Shown: positions 2,363-14,898 of the stretch, in pieces
How the letters are laid out: each line of letters begins with the position of its first letter
Position numbering within the stretch: position 1 is the stretch's first letter
Assembly: GCF_009909615.1 (NCBI RefSeq)
Contig: NZ_WWNE01000007.1
Span: 337,493 to 374,027 of the forward strand
Reading direction: 5' to 3'
From: Acidiluteibacter ferrifornacis
Lineage (GTDB): Bacteria > Bacteroidota > Bacteroidia > Flavobacteriales_E > Vicingaceae
DNA: 36,535 nucleotides
Made by a program: the position numbers and the translations under genes
The notes under the pieces: generated by a model
Databases searched by the model: none
Seen by the model: the letters and a program-made list of their open reading frames with translations, nothing else
What the model was told of the DNA's origin: nothing

Positions 2363-3130
2363 TTATATTGTTTTTGCTTTGTTCCAATATTTATCCATCT
2401 CAGCCAATGTCATTTCTCCCATCACTTTTCCATCTTTGGCTGACTCTACTTCTAAATACTGAAACCGTTTTATAAATTTTTTGTTTGTCTTTTCTAACGC
2501 ATCTTCTGGGTTAACGCCTAAAAATCTAGCATAGTTAATAATTGAAAACAATACATCTCCTAACTCTCCCTCAACCTTCTCTTTTGGAGAATTAGCTTCA
2601 ACTTCTGTTTTTAGTTCCGCTAATTCTTCTTCCACTTTCTCATACACCTGCTCCTTCTTCTCCCAATCAAAACCAACTCCACGCGCTTTATCCTGAATTC
2701 GAATCGCTTTTATTAAAGCAGGTAACGATTTAGGAACACCTTCCAAAACAGACTTATTCCCTTCTTTCAGTTTTAGCTTTTCCCAATTATCTAGAACTTC
2801 TCTTTCATCTTTTACTTTTACGTCTCCATAAATGTGCGGGTGCCTGTGAATCAATTTCTCACATATTCCATTCAAAACATCTGAAACATCCCATCCATGG
2901 CTTTCTGATCCAATTTTAGAATAAAAAACCAAGTGTAAAAACAAATCGCCCAGCTCCTTTTTAACTTCCGAATAATCCTCATCGTGAATCGCATCCACTA
3001 ACTCATAGGTCTCTTCTACAGTCAGGTGTCGAAGAGTTTGCATGGTTTGCTTCTTATCCCACGGACACTTTTCTCGTAAGTCATCCATGATATCTAGTAG
3101 TCGCTTAAATGCCTCTAATCGTTTGTCCAT
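2363..3130 (-). CDS. mazG: Nucleoside triphosphate pyrophosphohydrolase MazG
   Basis: The 255-residue two-domain MazG hydrolyses NTPs/dNTPs to NMP and pyrophosphate, a house-cleaning function in the cytoplasm. The N-terminal domain shows CPWDKKQT at residues 22-29, E39-E40-x2-E43 and E59-L-G-D62, the metal-binding EExxE...ExxD signature. The second domain repeats it with EELAE at 168-172 and E189-L-G-D192. Length matches E. coli MazG (263 aa). It heads a mazG-thioredoxin-DUF6952 operon on the minus strand, and a TATTTTTG box lies 15 bases before the ATG. Confidence 0.95.
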   Translation of the reverse strand: MDKRLEAFKRLLDIMDDLREKCPWDKKQTMQTLRHLTVEETYELVDAIHDEDYSEVKKELGDLFLHLVFYSKIGSESHGWDVSDVLNGICEKLIHRHPHIYGDVKVKDEREVLDNWEKLKLKEGNKSVLEGVPKSLPALIKAIRIQDKARGVGFDWEKKEQVYEKVEEELAELKTEVEANSPKEKVEGELGDVLFSIINYARFLGVNPEDALEKTNKKFIKRFQYLEVESAKDGKVMGEMTLAEMDKYWNKAKTI

Positions 3131-3144
3131 AACTCAATTTTGTG

Positions 3145-3152
3145 CAAAAATA
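3145..3152 (-). promoter_or_regulatory. Putative -7 box (TATTTTTG) for mazG operon
   Basis: The minus-strand match to the Bacteroidota TAnnTTTG element ends 15 bases before the mazG ATG. No clear TTG element was found at -33. Confidence 0.4.
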
Positions 3153-3193
3153 CGCACCTCTAATGGGATTAAAAATTTAAGCTTCATTTTTTA

Positions 3194-3201
3194 TACTTTT
3201 G
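3194..3201 (+). promoter_or_regulatory. Putative -7 box (TACTTTTG) for PagL-like gene
   Basis: The match to TAnnTTTG ends 19 bases before ATG 3220. It overlaps the upstream TTG 3199 of the longer open frame, which argues for the ATG start. No convincing -33 element was found. Confidence 0.4.
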
Positions 3202-3219
3202 AGAGACCAACTATTATTG

Positions 3220-4308
3220 ATGAAACAACTTTCACTGCTACTTTTATTTTTTCAATTCGTTCCTCTCGTTGCACAAGAAGAAGTCACCATTCATCCATAC
3301 ACTGTTGGTGTGCGCTCTCAGTATGGTTTTATTTTGAATCATTCTGAAACAATGGAGTTTGTGACGAGACAGCACATCTCTGCATTTGAGGTTTATTGGG
3401 AAAAAAACACGCTAGGTAAAAATAATTGGGAACAAGAATATAATCTTCCCAAATGGGGCATTGCCTTTTATGCGGCTCATTTCAATCAATACATCGGCAA
3501 CGGCTATGGACTGCACCCCTACATCTCTATTCCCATCATTAACAACAGAGTATACCATCTAGATTTTCGGATGGGCGCTGGACTAGGCTACATCTCTAAT
3601 CCATTTGATGGTATCGATAACTTTAAAAATGTGGCCATAGGAACTCCAATAAATGCCTTTCTGACGTTACTCCTTGATTCTTACTTTAAATTGAATGACA
3701 GAACCAACTTACACACCAACATTGCTTTTACCCACTTTAGTAATGCTTCATTTGCAAAGCCCAATTTAGGCATCAATATCCCAACCATAGGGATAGGATT
3801 GGATTATAATTTTGGCGAGAAAGCGGCTCTTGAAGTAAATAGAGAAATCGATTTTATACGAAAAGAGCATCCGATCAAACTAAGCATCCGTTCAGGATTT
3901 GGAATCAGTGAATCTTCTGCTACGATAGATAAAAAGTATATTTCAGGAATTTTTTCTGTTGCAGCAGAAAAACAATTCACTCCAAAAAGCAAGCTAGGAT
4001 TGGAAACCAATGTATTTCAAAGTGGAGCATTGATCGATGAACTAGAAGCTTTGGGAGAAAAAGTAAACAGCGATCTTGAAGCCATGCAGATTGGTATTGG
4101 CGCTTCTCATACATTGACTTTTGATCGTTTAGGATTGTACTTGCAGCTTGGCCTTTATCTGAAATCGAAATACAAAGAAGAAGGCAATTCCTATAGAAGA
4201 CTGGGGCTTATTTACTCCTTCGACAATAAATTAAGTACTCACATCATTCTCAAAACTCATGCTTTTAAAGCTGAATATGTAGAATTTGGAATAGGATATA
4301 CTTTATGA
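3220..4308 (+). CDS. PagL-like lipid A deacylase (acyloxyacyl hydrolase family)
   Basis: I choose ATG 3220 (362 aa) over the TTG at 3199 because it begins a clean signal peptide (MKQLSLLLLFFQFVPLVAQ). The body alternates hydrophobic and polar residues like an outer-membrane beta-barrel. The motif T-H172-F-S174-N175, followed by KPNLGINIPTIGIGLDYNF, matches the His/Ser catalytic region of PagL-type lipid A 3-O-deacylases in Bacteroidota. It probably trims an acyl chain from lipid A in the outer membrane. PagL itself is about 150-190 residues; here an extra C-terminal half of about 150 residues forms further barrel-like strands ending in FGIGYTL. It overlaps the next gene by 4 bases (ATGA), so the two are probably translationally coupled. 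Confidence 0.75.
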   Translation: MKQLSLLLLFFQFVPLVAQEEVTIHPYTVGVRSQYGFILNHSETMEFVTRQHISAFEVYWEKNTLGKNNWEQEYNLPKWGIAFYAAHFNQYIGNGYGLHPYISIPIINNRVYHLDFRMGAGLGYISNPFDGIDNFKNVAIGTPINAFLTLLLDSYFKLNDRTNLHTNIAFTHFSNASFAKPNLGINIPTIGIGLDYNFGEKAALEVNREIDFIRKEHPIKLSIRSGFGISESSATIDKKYISGIFSVAAEKQFTPKSKLGLETNVFQSGALIDELEALGEKVNSDLEAMQIGIGASHTLTFDRLGLYLQLGLYLKSKYKEEGNSYRRLGLIYSFDNKLSTHIILKTHAFKAEYVEFGIGYTL

Positions 4309-5042
4309 AAAAAATAGCACTCTACTTATTCCTTTCTGTCATTCTTCTTTCTTGTGAGAAAGAACACATGGGCGATTGCTTCACTTCTACAGGATCGAAA
4401 ACTTCAGAATATCGACCAAGCGGTGATTTTCAAATTATAGAATTAGACGATAGGATTGACCTGGATATCATTTGGGATTCTATTCCTTCCATAAAAGTAG
4501 AGGCGGGTAGCGGAATAATCGACAATATCATTACCGAAATTAAAGACGGACAGCTCTCCATTAGGAATGAAAACAAATGCAACTTTGTTAGAAGCTATAA
4601 AAAGAGAATGAAGGTAACGGTGACAGGAAATTCCTTCAATGAAATTACTTACAGAGGATCAGGAGAGGTGAATTGCCTGAACACATTGCGACCAGCTACC
4701 CTAAAAGTAGACTGTTGGGAGTCAAGCGGCGACTTGAATTTAGACTTTGAAAGCACCGAGAGTTTTCTGAAAATTCATACTGGCCCAACTGTGATAACTG
4801 CGAAAGGAAAAACAAATAATTCTATTCTTTATATTGGTGGAGCAGGCCAAATTAGGGCGGAGGGTTTGATTGCTCAAAATGGCTATATTGTAAATGCACA
4901 TACTGGAATCATTTATTCCCGAACGATAAACAAATTAGAAGTGCATTTAGAAAGTAACGGAGACGTGTACTCTTATGGTGTTCCGAATGAACTTTCTATT
5001 ACAAAGACAGGGAAGGGGAATTATATACAACTTTATCGGTGA
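4305..5042 (+). CDS. GIN-domain (DUF2807) lipoprotein
   Basis: This 245-residue lipoprotein has signal peptide MKKIALYLFLSVILLSC with the lipobox cysteine at C17. The rest follows the putative auto-transporter adhesin head GIN domain (DUF2807) pattern: short repeating strands such as IDLDIIWDSIPSIKVEAG, ITYRGSGEVNC, ESSGDLNLDF and HLESNGDVYSYG, typical of a right-handed beta-helix. It is probably anchored in the outer membrane or faces the periplasm. The family's biochemical role is unknown. It overlaps the PagL-like gene upstream by 4 bases and its stop abuts the next gene. Confidence 0.8.
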   Translation: MKKIALYLFLSVILLSCEKEHMGDCFTSTGSKTSEYRPSGDFQIIELDDRIDLDIIWDSIPSIKVEAGSGIIDNIITEIKDGQLSIRNENKCNFVRSYKKRMKVTVTGNSFNEITYRGSGEVNCLNTLRPATLKVDCWESSGDLNLDFESTESFLKIHTGPTVITAKGKTNNSILYIGGAGQIRAEGLIAQNGYIVNAHTGIIYSRTINKLEVHLESNGDVYSYGVPNELSITKTGKGNYIQLYR

Positions 5043-8331: not shown

Positions 8332-9504
8332 ATGGTAACATTTAACAATACAAAAATTGCGTTTGAGAATAAGAACAATACGCAGTTAAGAAAAGCCTAC
8401 TGGCTTTTTAAATTCATGGGAATTAATTGGCTGACAAAGATAGGAGCGGTCCTTTTAAAAATTGCTCTATTTTTGAGGTTGCCTGTTAAAGGCTTGGTAA
8501 AAATTACGGTCTTTGAACACTTTTGTGGAGGAGAAAGTATTGAAGAATGTGAAACTCGGATTCAAGAATTGGCCAACTTCAACGTAAAAACCATATTGGA
8601 TTATTCTGCTGAAGGTAAAGAAACCGACGAAGATTTCGATCTATCGATGGGTAAAGCGGTAGCCTCCATAGAGCGTGCTAAAAAAGATACAAATGTTCCT
8701 TTTTGCGTGTTCAAAGTGACCGCTTTAATGCCTTTTGATGTTTTAAAGAAAGTAAGTGCGAAGGAAGAGCTGTCTGAACAAGAAACCTTAGATTATCAAA
8801 AAGGTAGAAATCGAATTGATATTATTTGTCAGAATGCTGCCAATGCAGGAATTCCTCTGATGATAGATGCAGAAGAAAGTTGGATTCAAGATGCCATTGA
8901 TGAGATTGCCCTTATTATGATGCACCGATACAATAGAGATAGTGCTGTAGTTTACAACACCGCTCAAATGTATCGACACGATCGTTTAGAGTATTTGAAA
9001 GAATTATACAGGCAATCCGTAATCGAAGGGTTTTACATTGGAATGAAAGTAGTGCGTGGCGCTTACATGGAAAAAGAACGTGAACGTGCAGCTAGAAAAG
9101 GTTACCCATCTCCAATACAACCTGATAAAGCGGCAACAGATACAGACTATAATTTAGCCATTACTTTTTGTGTGGAACATTTAGATAAGTTTGCGATCTG
9201 CTGTGGTACTCACAATGAAGCCAGTTCTCAATTATTAACTGAATTAATTGAGGCAAAAGGACTTCATAGAGATGACAAACGATTATTCTTCTCTCAGCTA
9301 TTAGGCATGAGCGATCACATCAGTTTTAACTTATCGAAGAAAGACTACAATGTTTCTAAATATGTACCATACGGTCCTGTCGCAGAAGTGATGCCTTATT
9401 TGATTCGAAGAGCAGATGAAAATACTTCTATAGCAGGGCAAACTGGCAGAGAGTTACGATTAATTCAAGAAGAATTAGACAGAAGAACAAGAGAAGCCAG
9501 CTAA
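8332..9504 (+). CDS. Proline dehydrogenase family protein
   Basis: The 390-residue single-domain FAD enzyme oxidises proline to pyrroline-5-carboxylate and passes electrons to quinone. PRODH barrel motifs are visible: VPFCVFKVTALMPF (122-135), IPLMIDAEESWIQDA (174-188), VYNTAQMYRHDRLEYL (207-222), GMKVVRGAYMEKERERAA (237-254), CGTHNEASS (291-299) and the substrate-binding YLIRRADENTS (356-366), with R359 and R360 at the classic RR position. It is a stand-alone PRODH; no P5C dehydrogenase lies beside it. Length and the N-terminal helical extension match the Bacteroidota form. Confidence 0.93.
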   Translation: MVTFNNTKIAFENKNNTQLRKAYWLFKFMGINWLTKIGAVLLKIALFLRLPVKGLVKITVFEHFCGGESIEECETRIQELANFNVKTILDYSAEGKETDEDFDLSMGKAVASIERAKKDTNVPFCVFKVTALMPFDVLKKVSAKEELSEQETLDYQKGRNRIDIICQNAANAGIPLMIDAEESWIQDAIDEIALIMMHRYNRDSAVVYNTAQMYRHDRLEYLKELYRQSVIEGFYIGMKVVRGAYMEKERERAARKGYPSPIQPDKAATDTDYNLAITFCVEHLDKFAICCGTHNEASSQLLTELIEAKGLHRDDKRLFFSQLLGMSDHISFNLSKKDYNVSKYVPYGPVAEVMPYLIRRADENTSIAGQTGRELRLIQEELDRRTREAS

Positions 9505-9547: not shown

Positions 9548-10894
9548 ATGAAAGATTCGTTAATCGAAAAAATAAAACATGCCGACTCGTTTACTGATGA
9601 CGAGAAAAAAGCTTTAATTCAACGTCTTGAAGTAGCATCCAAAAGCGGACTTATTTATGAGGCGAAAGAAGAAGCCATAGAAAAAAAGTTGGCTTCGAAA
9701 AAACCGGATTTAAAAGAGATTAAAAAGAGAAAAGTAGGTACGACTGGTATTGCTCACCGATTAATTGAGGGCGATAATCTACACGGCTTAACTTGCCTTA
9801 AAAACAAGAACGAATCCTTCGACATCATATACATTGATCCTCCATACAATACGGGAAACAAAGACTTCAAATACAACGACCACTATGTAGATTTAGATGA
9901 TGACTATCGGCATTCCAAATGGATTTCATTCATGGCAAAACGTTTGGAAATTGCTCATCAATTATTGAAAAATGATGGAGCTATTTTTATTTCCATTGAT
10001 GATGCGGAACACGCTCGTTTAAAGTTATTGTGCGATGAAATTTTTGGAAGTCAGAACTTTGTAGCCAATTTGGTGCGAAAAAACAAATCAGGTTCCGGGC
10101 ACGATAGCAAACAAATTGCTGTAGAATATGATTATGTGCTATGCTATGCCAAACAAATTGAAAACCTGACTTTCAGCAAAGAAGATGCAGGTGCTGAAAA
10201 CGATCCAAAATACAAACACAAAGACGAACACATCAAACACCGTGGTAAATTCTACTTGCGAGATTTAGACTATAAAGGAAGTTATAGCCCTAGTTTGGAT
10301 TATGCAATTACTGCTCCTGATGGAACGGAAATGTGGTCGGGAGGCGCATTGGGAAAACCCAACACGTGGCGATGGGGAAAAGAGAAATTCCAATGGGGAA
10401 TTGAAAATGACTACATCGTTTTCAAGAAGCAAAAAGACAAATGGAAAGTTTACATCAAACAATATCAATTCGTCGACAATAAAAACAAAAAGAGACAACG
10501 CTTAATTCCTCATAGAGCACTGATTGAGTTTTCGAACTCAACTGGTAGTTCGGAATTGAAAAACATCTTGAATCAGGACATTTTCTCCTATCCAAAACCA
10601 ACGGCACTAATTGAATTTGTGTTGGATTTATTCGCACATAAAAAATCATTGCACCTTCTTGATTTCTTTGCAGGAAGCGGAACAAGCTTACACGCTACCA
10701 TGCTTAAAAACAAGGCAGATGGAGGTCAGCGCCAATGTACATTGATCACCAACAATGAAAATAAAATTTGCGAGGAAGTGACCTATCAACGGGGTAAGAA
10801 AGTCATTGAGGGATATAAAAATAAGAATGGAAAGTCCATTAAAGGATTAGAAAATAATATCTTGCAGTATTATATAGCGAGTTTTAAAGCATGA
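9548..10894 (+). CDS. Mod-like site-specific adenine DNA methyltransferase
   Basis: The 448-residue beta-class N6-adenine methyltransferase has catalytic motif IV D97-P-P-Y100 in FDIIYIDPPYNTG. The SAM-binding motif I DFFAGSGTS (372-380) lies C-terminal to it, with a target-recognition region of about 250 residues between. IFSYPKP (345-351) is typical of type III Mod proteins, and residues 120-160 (SFMAKRLEIAHQLL, GAIFISIDD) are conserved Mod sequence. A helical N-terminal extension of 60 residues precedes the core. Type III Mod proteins are usually longer (about 550-650 aa) and paired with a large Res helicase-nuclease. Here the partner is a 229-residue nuclease-like protein overlapping by 4 bases (ATGA). 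It probably protects host DNA in a restriction-modification system. Confidence 0.9.
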   Translation: MKDSLIEKIKHADSFTDDEKKALIQRLEVASKSGLIYEAKEEAIEKKLASKKPDLKEIKKRKVGTTGIAHRLIEGDNLHGLTCLKNKNESFDIIYIDPPYNTGNKDFKYNDHYVDLDDDYRHSKWISFMAKRLEIAHQLLKNDGAIFISIDDAEHARLKLLCDEIFGSQNFVANLVRKNKSGSGHDSKQIAVEYDYVLCYAKQIENLTFSKEDAGAENDPKYKHKDEHIKHRGKFYLRDLDYKGSYSPSLDYAITAPDGTEMWSGGALGKPNTWRWGKEKFQWGIENDYIVFKKQKDKWKVYIKQYQFVDNKNKKRQRLIPHRALIEFSNSTGSSELKNILNQDIFSYPKPTALIEFVLDLFAHKKSLHLLDFFAGSGTSLHATMLKNKADGGQRQCTLITNNENKICEEVTYQRGKKVIEGYKNKNGKSIKGLENNILQYYIASFKA

Positions 10895-11580
10895 TTGAAC
10901 CCAATAAAATAGCAGTTGAAGAGCAACAAATCCACGAGGCGATTGCGCAAGCTCAACAACAGCTTTTTATTGATAACCTCAGAAATCGATCATTGAATGT
11001 AGCTTTGGATAGTAAAATTAGAGGTTACATTGGTGAAATAGCTGTTCGAACCTGGTTTGCATCTCACGACATTCAGTTTTCATCCACCAATAAGCTGAAT
11101 CGAAAAAGCAATATGGATGTAGATTTTATCTATCAAGGTAAATCTCAATCTGTAGAAATTGAATTGAAGACTTCTTTAGTTCCCGATCAAGATAGAACCA
11201 TTGAATCTGCTATTTGTCAGCGAGACATCAAACTCATCCGACGAGGAGAAGAATCCATTGAGGATTTGAAAAGTGATGTACACATTCAGTTGTTTTTCAA
11301 TCAGAGAAGAGCGGCAAAAGACTTGTGGTTGCAACAACAACCTTCGATTAAACCCACAGATTCCGTTCGAGAAATCTACGATCGTTTGGCTTGTTTTCGC
11401 TACCTCAATGATACCTTTCTAATTGGCTGGATAGACAAACCAACCTTGATTCAACAGATTAATCAGAAGCCCAACTTTCTAAAAAAATGGAGCTACGGTC
11501 AACGTCAATTTTGGACCTGTAGCTTAGCAAAAGAAGCCAAACCAATAGACGCAATCATTCCCTTTTTGAAGGCGCTTTAA
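10891..11580 (+). CDS. PD-(D/E)XK nuclease-like protein, candidate restriction endonuclease
   Basis: I do not recognise a named family for this 229-residue protein. It shows the order expected of the PD-(D/E)XK fold: a helix with GYIGE49IAVRTWF, a strand with MD76-V-D78-FIYQ, and the catalytic-looking VEIE91-L-K93-TS. A core strand HIQLFF (131-136) follows. A Q-rich helix (about 12-25) precedes the core and a C-terminal half with several Trp residues follows (W146, W180, W200, W208). No helicase or ATPase motif is present. Overlap with the upstream methyltransferase (ATGA) strongly suggests its restriction partner, giving a type II-like system. Function is inferred from fold motifs and context only. 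Confidence 0.72.
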   Translation: MIEPNKIAVEEQQIHEAIAQAQQQLFIDNLRNRSLNVALDSKIRGYIGEIAVRTWFASHDIQFSSTNKLNRKSNMDVDFIYQGKSQSVEIELKTSLVPDQDRTIESAICQRDIKLIRRGEESIEDLKSDVHIQLFFNQRRAAKDLWLQQQPSIKPTDSVREIYDRLACFRYLNDTFLIGWIDKPTLIQQINQKPNFLKKWSYGQRQFWTCSLAKEAKPIDAIIPFLKAL

Positions 11581-11632: not shown

Positions 11633-13312
11633 ATGCTGCAAGAAAAAGCGCTAGCGCTTCTAAAATCAGGAAAAAATGTATTCTTAACTGGTTCCGCAGG
11701 TACAGGTAAAACGTATATTTTAAATCAATACATCACTTATCTAAAAGAGCGTAAAATTACAGTAGCGACAACTGCATCTACAGGTATTGCAGCCACCCAT
11801 ATGAATGGAATGACCATTCACTCTTGGGCGGGAATTGGTGTAAAAGAGCATCTCACCAATAATCAGTTGGCGAGTATGAAAGACAAAAAGTATTTAAGAG
11901 ATCACCTAGAAAAGACGAATGTGCTGATTATAGATGAAATATCGATGCTGCATAAAACTCAACTGAACCTAGTAAATAGAGTGTTGCAGTATTTTCAAGG
12001 CAACGAAAAACCATTTGGAGGAATTCAAGTGGTGCTTTGTGGTGATTTTTTCCAGCTTCCTCCAATAGGAAACCCTGGTGAACGCAGTAGTGATAAGTTT
12101 GCATTTATGTCTGAAGCATGGGTAGAAGCCAACTTTAACATTGCCTATTTAACAGAGCAATACAGACAGGAAGGTGGAGAATTGAATCAGATTCTGAATG
12201 AAATCAGAGCCTGTCAAATCTCCCAGCAAAGTAAAGCCGCTCTGATGGCAGCTGAGCATACCTCCTTCTCAGAAGACATAGAACCGACCAAGTTATACAC
12301 GCACAATTATGATGTAGACAGTATCAATAAAGCGCATTTAGATAAGTTGAAGAGCAGAAAGAAAACATTTACTGCTGAGACCAAAGGAAATGAGAAACTT
12401 TTAATGACCCTTAAAAACTCCGTTTTAGCGAACGAGGAATTAGAACTAAAGATTGGCGCCAAAGTAATGTTTGTAAAGAACAACAATGAAAAAGGATATG
12501 TCAATGGTTCTATGGGAACAGTAATTGGTTTCAACGAAGAGAATATTCCTTCAGTGAAATTATACGATGGCAGAACAGTTTATGCTCATCAGGAAAGTTG
12601 GGGAGTGCAAGATGAAAAAGGCAAAGTATTGGCTAGTTTCAATCAAATTCCATTGCGATTAGCTTGGGCGATTACGATCCATAAATGTCAAGGAATGACA
12701 TTGGATGCTGCCGAAATCGATTTATCAAAAACATTTGAAAAAGGCCAAGGGTATGTTGGATTGTCTCGATTAAAAAAGCTGGACAATTTAAAATTAGTTG
12801 GTTTCAATGAAATGGCATTGGAAGTAGACAATTTGGCTTTTAAAGCAGATTTACGATTCCAAGAATTATCTGCTCAAGCAGAGCTACAATACACCACTCC
12901 AGAGTTAGAAAAAGAAGCGATTGTCTTTATTAAAAGTTGTGGTGGGTTGACCAACCCTAGTGACATAGACCGTAACAAAAAGAAAATCAAAGAAAAGAAA
13001 AAAGGAAAAAAAGAGTCGACTTATGAGATAACCTTGGAATACATGCGCCAAGCTATGAGCATTAAAGAAATTGCTGAAGAAAGAGGCATGACCACAGGAA
13101 CGATTGCAGGCCATTTGATTCGATTGAAAAAAGAAAACCCAGATTTCAACTTTAGCCAATACAAGCCTAAAAAATCAATCTGCGACAAAGTAGAAATCGC
13201 CTACAAAATGCAACCGAAAGGAGAACCAATCAGCACAAAGAATATTTATGATGCCCTTGAAGGGAAAGTCACTTATGATGACATTAAACTGGCTTTGGCT
13301 TTTGTGGTGTAA
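11633..13312 (+). CDS. Pif1/RecD-like helicase with C-terminal helix-turn-helix
   Basis: The 559-residue superfamily 1 helicase has Walker A GSAGTGKT at residues 20-27 and motif Ia TASTGIAATHMNG. Further motifs are Walker B VLIIDEISML, motif III VVLCGDFFQLPP, YLTEQYRQ, and the C-terminal LAWAITIHKCQGMTLD plus YVGLSRLKKLDNL typical of Pif1/RecD2 5'-3' helicases. After a basic Lys-rich linker (about 445-465), residues 470-515 hold a helix-turn-helix (MSIKEIAEERGMTTGTIAGH), a fusion common in Bacteroidota. The likely role is unwinding of DNA or G-quadruplex/R-loop structures in replication or repair. It starts 52 bases after the nuclease gene; a defence link is possible but not required. Confidence 0.9.
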   Translation: MLQEKALALLKSGKNVFLTGSAGTGKTYILNQYITYLKERKITVATTASTGIAATHMNGMTIHSWAGIGVKEHLTNNQLASMKDKKYLRDHLEKTNVLIIDEISMLHKTQLNLVNRVLQYFQGNEKPFGGIQVVLCGDFFQLPPIGNPGERSSDKFAFMSEAWVEANFNIAYLTEQYRQEGGELNQILNEIRACQISQQSKAALMAAEHTSFSEDIEPTKLYTHNYDVDSINKAHLDKLKSRKKTFTAETKGNEKLLMTLKNSVLANEELELKIGAKVMFVKNNNEKGYVNGSMGTVIGFNEENIPSVKLYDGRTVYAHQESWGVQDEKGKVLASFNQIPLRLAWAITIHKCQGMTLDAAEIDLSKTFEKGQGYVGLSRLKKLDNLKLVGFNEMALEVDNLAFKADLRFQELSAQAELQYTTPELEKEAIVFIKSCGGLTNPSDIDRNKKKIKEKKKGKKESTYEITLEYMRQAMSIKEIAEERGMTTGTIAGHLIRLKKENPDFNFSQYKPKKSICDKVEIAYKMQPKGEPISTKNIYDALEGKVTYDDIKLALAFVV

Positions 13313-13350: not shown

Positions 13351-14139
13351 ATGCGATTTTTCACAGCGATTAAAACAGCTTTTTCTAGTTATTCAGAAGC
13401 CCTTGCATTCATCAATACTCACAAAATGTATCGTTACTTTTTGTGGCCAATTGTGATGCACATTGTCTTATTTCTCTTGGGGTTTTCAGGAGTTTCGTAT
13501 TTAACAGATACCACTATAGAATTTTTAAAATCTTTCGTTGCTGAGAATCCTGATGCTTGGTACAATTCAGAAATCCTGACTGGTGTATTGGCCGTCACTT
13601 TATGGATTTTCCTTCGAATATTTTTCTTTATTGCTTTTGCCTACGTTGGCGGTTATGTGGTTTTGTTGCTCCTCTCTCCTATCCTCTCGATTGTGGCTGC
13701 AAACACTTCCGAAAATATTACAGGGACTAAAATTCCTTTTCAAATGGGTCAATTCTTAAATGACATATTGCGAGGACTTTCAATGGCCGTTCGAAACTTC
13801 TTGTACCAGCTAGTGATTACATTGGCCTTATTAATTATTGGATTTATTCCTGTACTTGGTTGGTTATCTCCCATTCTCTTATTTGGAGTTTCTAGTTATT
13901 TCTATGGATTTTCTTTTATTGACTACGGGCTTGAAAGTAAACAATTGAATTATGGGCAAAGTGTGCGTTTCGTTCAACAAAACAAAACGTTATCTATTGG
14001 CATCGGCTTGCCATATGTAATTCTCTTGTTGATTCCATTTATTGGGCTTATTCTTGCAGGATTTTTCGCCATTGTTAGTGCGGTAAGTGCTACGATAGCT
14101 ATTCATAAAAAGGAATATATTTCTCAATTGCCACAGTAA
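13351..14139 (+). CDS. EI24 domain (CysZ-like) membrane protein
   Basis: The 262-residue integral membrane protein has about five to six hydrophobic segments. It opens with FTAIKTAFSSYSEALAFI and KMYRYFLWPIVMHIVLFLLGF, the EI24/CysZ pattern, and has the conserved core GFIPVLGWLSPILLFG and SFIDYGLESKQ. CysZ is a sulfate permease in Proteobacteria, but no sulfur genes lie nearby, so the substrate is unknown. It is followed by mqnA after 12 bases and is probably co-transcribed with it. Confidence 0.85.
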   Translation: MRFFTAIKTAFSSYSEALAFINTHKMYRYFLWPIVMHIVLFLLGFSGVSYLTDTTIEFLKSFVAENPDAWYNSEILTGVLAVTLWIFLRIFFFIAFAYVGGYVVLLLLSPILSIVAANTSENITGTKIPFQMGQFLNDILRGLSMAVRNFLYQLVITLALLIIGFIPVLGWLSPILLFGVSSYFYGFSFIDYGLESKQLNYGQSVRFVQQNKTLSIGIGLPYVILLLIPFIGLILAGFFAIVSAVSATIAIHKKEYISQLPQ

Positions 14140-14151
14140 AAGAATTTTTCG

Positions 14152-14898
14152 ATGATTAAAATCTCCGCCGTTTCCTACCTCAACACCCTTCCTTTTGCAT
14201 ACGGAATAGAACAGTCGGAATACATTAAAAACAACAGTGTAATCAGCAGAGATATTCCTTCTGAATGTGCACGAAAGCTTTTGGCTGGAGAGGTAGATTT
14301 AGGATTAGTTCCTGTTGCTATTATCCCGCAGTTAAAGGAAAGTTACATCATTTCAGACTATTGCATTGGAGCAGTAAACAAAGTTCATTCGGTTAATTTA
14401 TACAGCCATTATCCAATTGATGAAGTCACTAAAATCAAGTTAGATTATCAGTCTCGGACATCGGTAAACCTTTGTAAAATATTGTGCAAAAAACATTGGC
14501 ATGTTGCTCCTCGATTTGAGCAAGCCTCTATAGGTTTTGAAAACAACATTGATTCTCAAGAAGCCGCTGTAATCATAGGAGATCGAACTTTTAACTTAGA
14601 GGATTCTTATCCTTATGTATACGATTTATCTGAAGAGTGGTACAAGATGACTGGACTTCCATTTGTATTTGCGGCTTGGGTAGCCAATAAAGAAATCCCT
14701 ACAGATTACATCGCTGAATTTAATGAGGCTTGCGCCAATGGCATCGATCACATTGATGAGGCCATTAAGTTTGGAAACATAGACATCATCAACCAAGAAG
14801 CTCAAAAAAAATACCTTACCGAATCCATCAGTTATTCATTAGATGCTGATAAAAGAAAAGGGTTGAGTTTATTTCTAAAGTTATTAGCTGAGCTATAA
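14152..14898 (+). CDS. mqnA: Chorismate dehydratase MqnA (futalosine menaquinone pathway)
   Basis: This 248-residue MqnA/MqnD-family protein dehydrates chorismate to 3-enolpyruvylbenzoate, the first step of the futalosine route to menaquinone. Motifs include ISAVSYLNTLPFAYG (3-17), the substrate-binding ELLAGEVDLGLVPVA-like stretch (about 44-58), SDYCIGA, and IIGDRTF around residue 145. It has no signal peptide despite the periplasmic-binding-protein fold. It is somewhat shorter than many MqnA proteins (about 270-290). MqnD is a paralogue with similar motifs, but the VNKVHSVNLYS segment favours MqnA. No other mqn genes are in the window. Confidence 0.85.
   Translation: MIKISAVSYLNTLPFAYGIEQSEYIKNNSVISRDIPSECARKLLAGEVDLGLVPVAIIPQLKESYIISDYCIGAVNKVHSVNLYSHYPIDEVTKIKLDYQSRTSVNLCKILCKKHWHVAPRFEQASIGFENNIDSQEAAVIIGDRTFNLEDSYPYVYDLSEEWYKMTGLPFVFAAWVANKEIPTDYIAEFNEACANGIDHIDEAIKFGNIDIINQEAQKKYLTESISYSLDADKRKGLSLFLKLLAEL

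Follow-up and report, generated by a model that had tools for sequence, protein, structure and literature searches.

What does a Mod-type adenine methylase do beside a small, free-standing nuclease and with no Res helicase-nuclease next to it? The question is raised by two overlapping genes in a stretch of 36,535 nucleotides (the window) from contig NZ_WWNE01000007.1 of Acidiluteibacter ferrifornacis, whose genome (G000) is a draft of 3.5 Mb. The answer favoured here, which we consider probable, is a two-gene restriction-modification (R-M) system of orthodox type II layout, in which the methylase is paired with a stand-alone PD-(D/E)XK endonuclease of an undescribed family. The pair consists of the following features.

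9548..10894, + strand: Mod-type beta-class N6-adenine DNA methyltransferase, 448 aa, assigned from Pfam, PADLOC and PDB matches
10891..11580, + strand: stand-alone nuclease of PD-(D/E)XK type as predicted, unnamed family, 229 aa, assigned from AlphaFold, VIA-align and a 12-row alignment
10891..10894, + strand: ATGA stop/start overlap of the two genes, with probable translational coupling, kept in undecayed linked loci

The shared four bases have counterparts throughout the host's family. The overlap is of 4 or 8 bases in all nine undecayed linked loci, the host's included (the G434 methylase is interrupted by an assembly gap), and it points to probable translational coupling of methylase and nuclease. 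The first-pass annotation, made from the letters of the window, had described a beta-class methylase with DPPY and FAGSG motifs that overlaps, by ATGA, a 229-residue protein with E49, D78 and E91-L92-K93; the reading frames, motifs and residues are all as it gave them.

The methylase has its motifs in the order IV (DPPY, residues 97-100), target-recognition region, I (FAGSG, 374-378). Pfam N6_N4_Mtase matches it at 2e-30, the best PADLOC model is that of the type III methyltransferases (MTase_III, 295 bits), and in the PDB the top sequence hits are all type III Mod proteins (Mbo45V, 6k0w and EcoP15I), which bears out the earlier proposal that the enzyme is Mod-derived. The alignments to these three proteins end at residues 472 of 618, 496 of 567 and 466 (envelope 509) of 644. 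PMC4490356 divides EcoP15I Mod into an N-terminal domain for dimerisation (14-60), a methyltransferase domain (62-262 and 390-516), a target-recognition domain (263-384) and, at the C terminus, a domain that makes contact with Res (539-644). Judged by alignment length, all nine aligned methylases stop before that last domain, the one from G023 ending about 25 residues later than the other eight. The methylase thus appears, at the level of sequence, to lack the Res-contacting domain; its AlphaFold model (predicted local distance difference test score, pLDDT, 59.5) is too poor for structural confirmation of the absence.

No Res gene adjoins the pair in the window or in the ten family loci read, and no motor subunit is found at the locus, a Pif1-like helicase gene being adjacent in the window genus only. 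A DEAD/DEAH helicase gene lies beside Mod in 7 of the 7 annotated plasmid regions that were opened (20 listed of 783 matching records). The best-ranked relative in the phage collection is a Mod of 614 aa, which extends approximately 155 residues past the match and is followed by a helicase-like reading frame of 788 aa. Elsewhere in the host genome, on G000:C20 (L074:4797-10128), what appears to be an ordinary type III Mod of 621 aa is separated by a 285-aa gene from a helicase-like gene of 870 aa, so that type III-like and small-nuclease layouts coexist in one genome.

The nuclease was modelled with AlphaFold from 12 family members (pLDDT 90.0, predicted template modelling score 0.86). The model has a long helix (35-57), strands at 65-70, 75-82 and 87-97, and later strands at 130-139 and 175-182 with helices between. 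D76, D78, E91 and K93 are invariant in all 12 rows of the family alignment and E49 is kept in 11; beyond the catalytic core there is a conserved C-terminal W-Y-R-FW block. The leading VIA-align row is D212 (Z 8.5, 139 residues, 3.8 A), followed by DpnI (7.8), I-Ssp6803I (7.6), SPARDA subunits (7.6) and Eco15I/NhoI, with MspI (6.6), Hjc (6.5), EcoRV (5.2) and PvuII (5.0) lower down. We take all of these chains to be PD-(D/E)XK enzymes. Since the Z scores are middling, and a Z below 8 can reflect a common arrangement, the assignment rests on these rows and the conserved residues together. With a confident model and middling structural scores, the protein probably has the PD-(D/E)XK arrangement, as the earlier annotation had asked to be checked by structure prediction. 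MutH is not in the best 50 VIA-align rows, and missing from those rows does not exclude a family. Foldseek matches in the PDB were weak, the best being EcoRV (expectation value, E, 0.014), and 26 BFVD rows, of uncharacterised viral proteins, resembled the fold at E <= 0.001 (lowest 5e-7).

By sequence, the nuclease has no significant match in Pfam, PHROG or the PDB. Weak hits to NCBIfam PRK14681 (E 0.013) and to the PADLOC models PDC-S01 (E 7e-4) and AbiQ (E 4e-4) were discarded, each being confined to one of the 12 members. The searches match no described restriction enzyme family, and the family that the first-pass annotation could not place stays without a name.

The genes on either side of the pair, the first and last lines being context outside the system, are as follows; the names putA, EI24, mqnA, fabD, mutS2, cobB/Sir2 and MscS, here and below, are our own readings of the sequences.

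8332..9504, + strand: putA-like proline dehydrogenase, the constant upstream neighbour
11633..13312, + strand: Pif1-like superfamily 1 helicase with a C-terminal HTH_40 domain (Pfam PIF1 1e-43, HTH_40 3e-18)
13351..14898, + strand: EI24-like membrane protein and mqnA-like gene, the usual downstream neighbours

The survey of the order covered 46 genomes, all of one family. The nuclease had a match at E <= 0.01 in 12 of them, of which 10 were kept, nine undecayed and one decayed; the weak hits in G422 and G437 were set aside as they had no methylase nearby. The pair follows putA immediately in all ten loci, and EI24-mqnA lies downstream in eight, with the Pif1-like gene intervening in the window genus. 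The G407 contig breaks off within EI24. In G397 (L029) the 6.4 kb downstream of the pair hold other genes and no EI24; these include relatives of window positions 2363-5042, which suggests that this copy borders a rearrangement. The decayed locus, L003 in G425, has a methylase with an in-frame stop and a nuclease split between frames with stops. An assembly error is possible there; if real, the loss of both genes is what would be expected of a methylase and nuclease that work as a unit. G430 has the start of a methylase behind putA at a contig edge. G433 has fabD-putA-EI24-mqnA without the pair, ie an empty site, and in the 28 other non-carrier loci read (L077, L079-L105) putA either has different genes beside it within 1.5 kb or lies too near the end of the locus for that distance to be covered.

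The two genes have diverged together and in step with their downstream neighbours. Methylase and nuclease identities co-vary with r 0.85 (36 pairs, nine genomes), or 0.88 without the window genus (21 pairs). Against EI24 and mqnA, in the 21 pairs from seven genomes with complete genes, r is 0.95 and 0.97 for the methylase and 0.95 and 0.87 for the nuclease; without the window genus the values are 0.93-0.96 (10 pairs). The identity pairs are not independent and several tree nodes are weak (support 38-62), so these r values are descriptive. putA was rejected as a marker of vertical descent (r 0.42 with the methylase, 0.23 with the nuclease), its copies in G429 and G423 grouping apart. The ratio of non-synonymous to synonymous substitution rates (dN/dS) was 0.05-0.10 in the four methylase or nuclease comparisons with a computable dS (0.10-1.96; G023-G977 and G427-G429), dS being saturated between G000 and G395 of the same genus. 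Both genes are under purifying selection. Restriction-type defence systems usually move between bacteria. No relative of the nuclease was found in 50,697 phage or 72,556 plasmid records and none was confirmed in viral contigs; the pair shows neither varied positions nor carriage by phages or plasmids, and it seems to have been inherited in place, at a single chromosomal position.

Outside the family the nuclease is rare. It was found in 2 of 395 genomes of the phylum (the host included), in 7 of 395 of the class (six family members and one remote) and in 3 of 391 of another class. A distant genus, represented by G023 and G977, has both genes on different contigs, in the contexts cobB/Sir2-methylase-MscS and mutS2-nuclease-tmRNA (transfer-messenger RNA). 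The G023 methylase is 54% identical to that of the window, and the nuclease of this genus 36%. Identity between the nuclease contigs of the two genomes (L005/L068) is 97-99% across mutS2-nuclease-tmRNA and drops to 75-94% elsewhere, a contrast which argues against simple misbinning and fits a recent exchange; this tract has likely passed between the two species. The genes beyond the tmRNA in G977 differ from those in G023, which makes that end resemble an integration site. Those in G023 (L005:11196-16489) are a D12-class adenine methylase, a 259-aa protein and a second methylase, and read like a DpnII-type cluster. The nuclease gene of G1043 begins 413 bases away from a contig end; this genome is 81% complete, and it yielded no close methylase. 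A 221-aa protein of G610 (E 4e-5) was left out of the family as remote and orphan; it is PD-(D/E)XK-like (L070:5563-6228) and sits between genes that read as purD-like and pyridoxal-enzyme-like.

On the reading we favour, the methylase would mark adenine in the host's copies of a recognition site, and the nuclease would cut copies without the mark, with no need of an ATP-driven motor. Both enzymes would share the site, the partner's methylation would block cleavage, and the site would have to be one that a single methylase can mark on both strands, such as a palindrome. Separate methylase and endonuclease genes form a unit in the nine undecayed linked loci. The type II-like interpretation of the first-pass annotation is supported by the missing Res, the predicted nuclease fold and the overlapping pair, with restriction activity itself presumed; its expectation that homologues would be linked to methylases held for these nine loci and the decayed one, and failed in G023 and G977.

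Several observations weigh against this reading. The unlinked genes of the distant genus are one, and a solitary methylase relative in G424 (L072:5608-8820), 57% identical and with no nuclease partner seen, is another; from both cases, methylase and nuclease can evidently be kept apart. The solitary gene adjoins one that reads as a site-specific recombinase, and it is perhaps a mobile version. The nuclease of G423 (L028:6159-6854) has Gly at the E49 position beside an intact-looking methylase. Just one structural match reaches Z >= 8, and unrelated eIF3d chains score up to 5.2. One plasmid Mod having a helicase partner measures just 477 aa, so the absence of Res cannot be concluded just from a short Mod. 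No word was depleted in all carriers yet spared in non-carriers, either in a nine-genome sample or in genome-wide counts of CCAG. EcoP15I Mod, according to PMC4490356, methylates one strand only. With an asymmetric site, such marking would leave one daughter duplex unmarked after each replication and so endanger replicated DNA. According to PMC4081073, many type II systems with asymmetric sites carry one or two methylases, each modifying one strand. The replication problem leads one to expect that the site is palindromic, that the nuclease requires two sites, or that the methylase guides it.

The words were counted in approximately 2.4 Mb of stretches from nine genomes (six carriers, three non-carriers). 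Long-lived orthodox type II systems tend to leave avoidance of their site, palindromic or not, and type III systems mostly leave none, according to PMC4687349. Among tetramers, the asymmetric CCAG/CTGG showed the strongest depletion by order-2 Markov z in 5 of 6 carriers (G000, G395, G023, G434 and G427), at 0.35-0.58 of expected, and was lowest or second lowest in the same five under a codon-shuffle null. It was nevertheless rejected as the site of the pair. The carrier G397 has it at 0.82 of expected; the non-carrier G402 has it at 0.57, at rank 1 and second lowest under the codon null; and in genome-wide counts of CCAGWWWW against its reverse, non-carriers are as low as carriers (G400 0.49, G435 0.59, G433 0.65, G168 0.55). 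Family carriers and non-carriers differ in this last measure with p 0.004 (10 vs 22 genomes), kinship being ignored, G430 being counted as a carrier, G396, G424, G425 and G426 being dropped, and 10 of the 46 family genomes not being included. A search for paired CCAG sites taught us nothing. GTMKAC, which we take to be an AccI-type site, hardly occurs in G023 (4 against 331 expected) or G397 (0 against 131); it was rejected in turn, being near normal in the carriers G000, G395, G434 and G427. G023 is also poor in GGCC (60 of 1100 expected) and ATCGAT (6 of 207). The depletions of GTMKAC, GGCC and ATCGAT are strong traces of other restriction systems.

Guidance by the methylase would amount to a different division of labour: the dimeric enzyme recognises the site and the nuclease docks on it, as in a type III system whose motor and Res nuclease had been replaced by a PD-(D/E)XK subunit. 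An identifiable target-recognition region is present in the methylase only, the identities of the two proteins co-vary, and the W-Y-R-FW block could be a docking surface. We regard this arrangement as unlikely, however, as the methylase seems to lack the domain through which EcoP15I Mod contacts Res and the genes are unlinked in G023 and G977; moreover, enzymes the size of EcoRV read their own site, and a nuclease of 229 aa is big enough to do so. A motor might instead be supplied by the Pif1-like helicase, as the third part of a system in which it is adjacent in the window genus and acts in trans elsewhere. The helicase adjoins the pair in both window-genus genomes having the locus and lies on other contigs in seven other carriers. 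An orthologue (E <= 1e-80) was found in 9 of 10 carriers, the decayed G425 included, and in 1 of 7 non-carriers (Fisher p 0.004), in a test that took in 18 of the 46 family genomes, dropped G396 (69% complete, no hit) and ignored kinship, so that helicase and pair may just share a clade. The gene is not at the locus in the other eight carriers, is present in the non-carrier G436 and was not found in the carrier G428. We treat its distribution as a curiosity, not as proof of a third part, and rate this the least probable of the explanations considered.

The restricting role of the nuclease can also be questioned. The pair could be a domesticated maintenance system, in which methylation labels the old strand and the nuclease serves repair or the control of recombination by nicking DNA that lacks the mark, after the manner of Dam and MutH, a chromosomal adenine methylase and PD-(D/E)XK nuclease with separable genes. 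Vertical inheritance at one site would suit such a role, as would the want of relatives in the phage, plasmid and viral-contig collections, and the unlinked genes of G023 and G977, where the nuclease gene abuts mutS2; all of these are unlike selfish restriction systems. We consider this role very unlikely. The distribution is patchy: the nuclease gene is in 10 of 46 family genomes, one copy being decayed, and one relative has an empty site. MutH did not figure among the best 50 VIA-align rows, and no MutL was found within the genome stretches examined. It is more improbable again that the nuclease is no antagonist of the methylase, the latter being a solitary epigenetic enzyme and the former an unrelated or methylation-dependent (type IV-like) passenger. 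The lone relative in G424, the unlinked genes and the place of DpnI among the better structural matches speak for it, but the overlap is kept in 9 of 9 undecayed linked family loci, both genes have decayed in parallel in L003 and co-diverged elsewhere, and cutting the partner's mark would be lethal. A last suggestion, which we make only tentatively and think unlikely, is that the pair is an R-M system settled in the core chromosome, whose Mod-type methylase, having shed its Res-docking domain, steers or opposes the nuclease in a standing role in methyl-directed DNA maintenance or lineage isolation. The fixed site, the co-divergence with housekeeping neighbours and the split but retained genes beside mutS2 suggest a standing chromosomal role.

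The two-gene type II system thus preferred can be set beside systems already known. Titles and the openings of abstracts in the open literature, subscription papers being outside the scope, held no description of such a pairing or of unlinked or vertically inherited restriction genes. With the type III systems EcoP15I and Mbo45V the locus shares a Mod-family methylase with the same motif order and a central target-recognition region; it differs in having no adjacent Res, in a methylase that ends before the Res-contacting domain, and in a small, motor-less nuclease. Cleavage by type III enzymes also calls for ATP and for two asymmetric sites in inverse orientation. The locus suggests how a type III system might become motor-less, by a Mod without that domain being joined to a small nuclease, and it raises the question of how a Mod-type enzyme, one-strand marking in EcoP15I, would protect replicated DNA from a nuclease needing no second site. 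Compared to Dam and MutH, which are likewise an adenine methylase and a PD-(D/E)XK nuclease, chromosomal and capable of being unlinked, the distribution here is patchy, MutH is not among the best 50 structural rows and adjacency to mutS2 is confined to one genus. The uncharacterised viral proteins, mostly of phages and many of approximately 160-200 aa, resemble the nuclease in predicted fold (TM-score by query 0.37-0.57 in the best 20 rows) and are only 9-16% identical to it in the same rows; two of the like-fold proteins are named restriction endonuclease in BFVD. Orthodox type II systems have, as here, two adjacent genes, a compact PD-(D/E)XK-like nuclease and a layout that needs no ATPase. 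They differ from the present locus in that its methylase is of Mod type, its nuclease matches no described family by sequence, and the pair keeps one chromosomal position in much of a bacterial family. The nuclease family would be a candidate for a new reagent. The locus looks like an unusually old and immobile restriction system, one in which defence, lineage isolation and DNA maintenance can be tested against each other.

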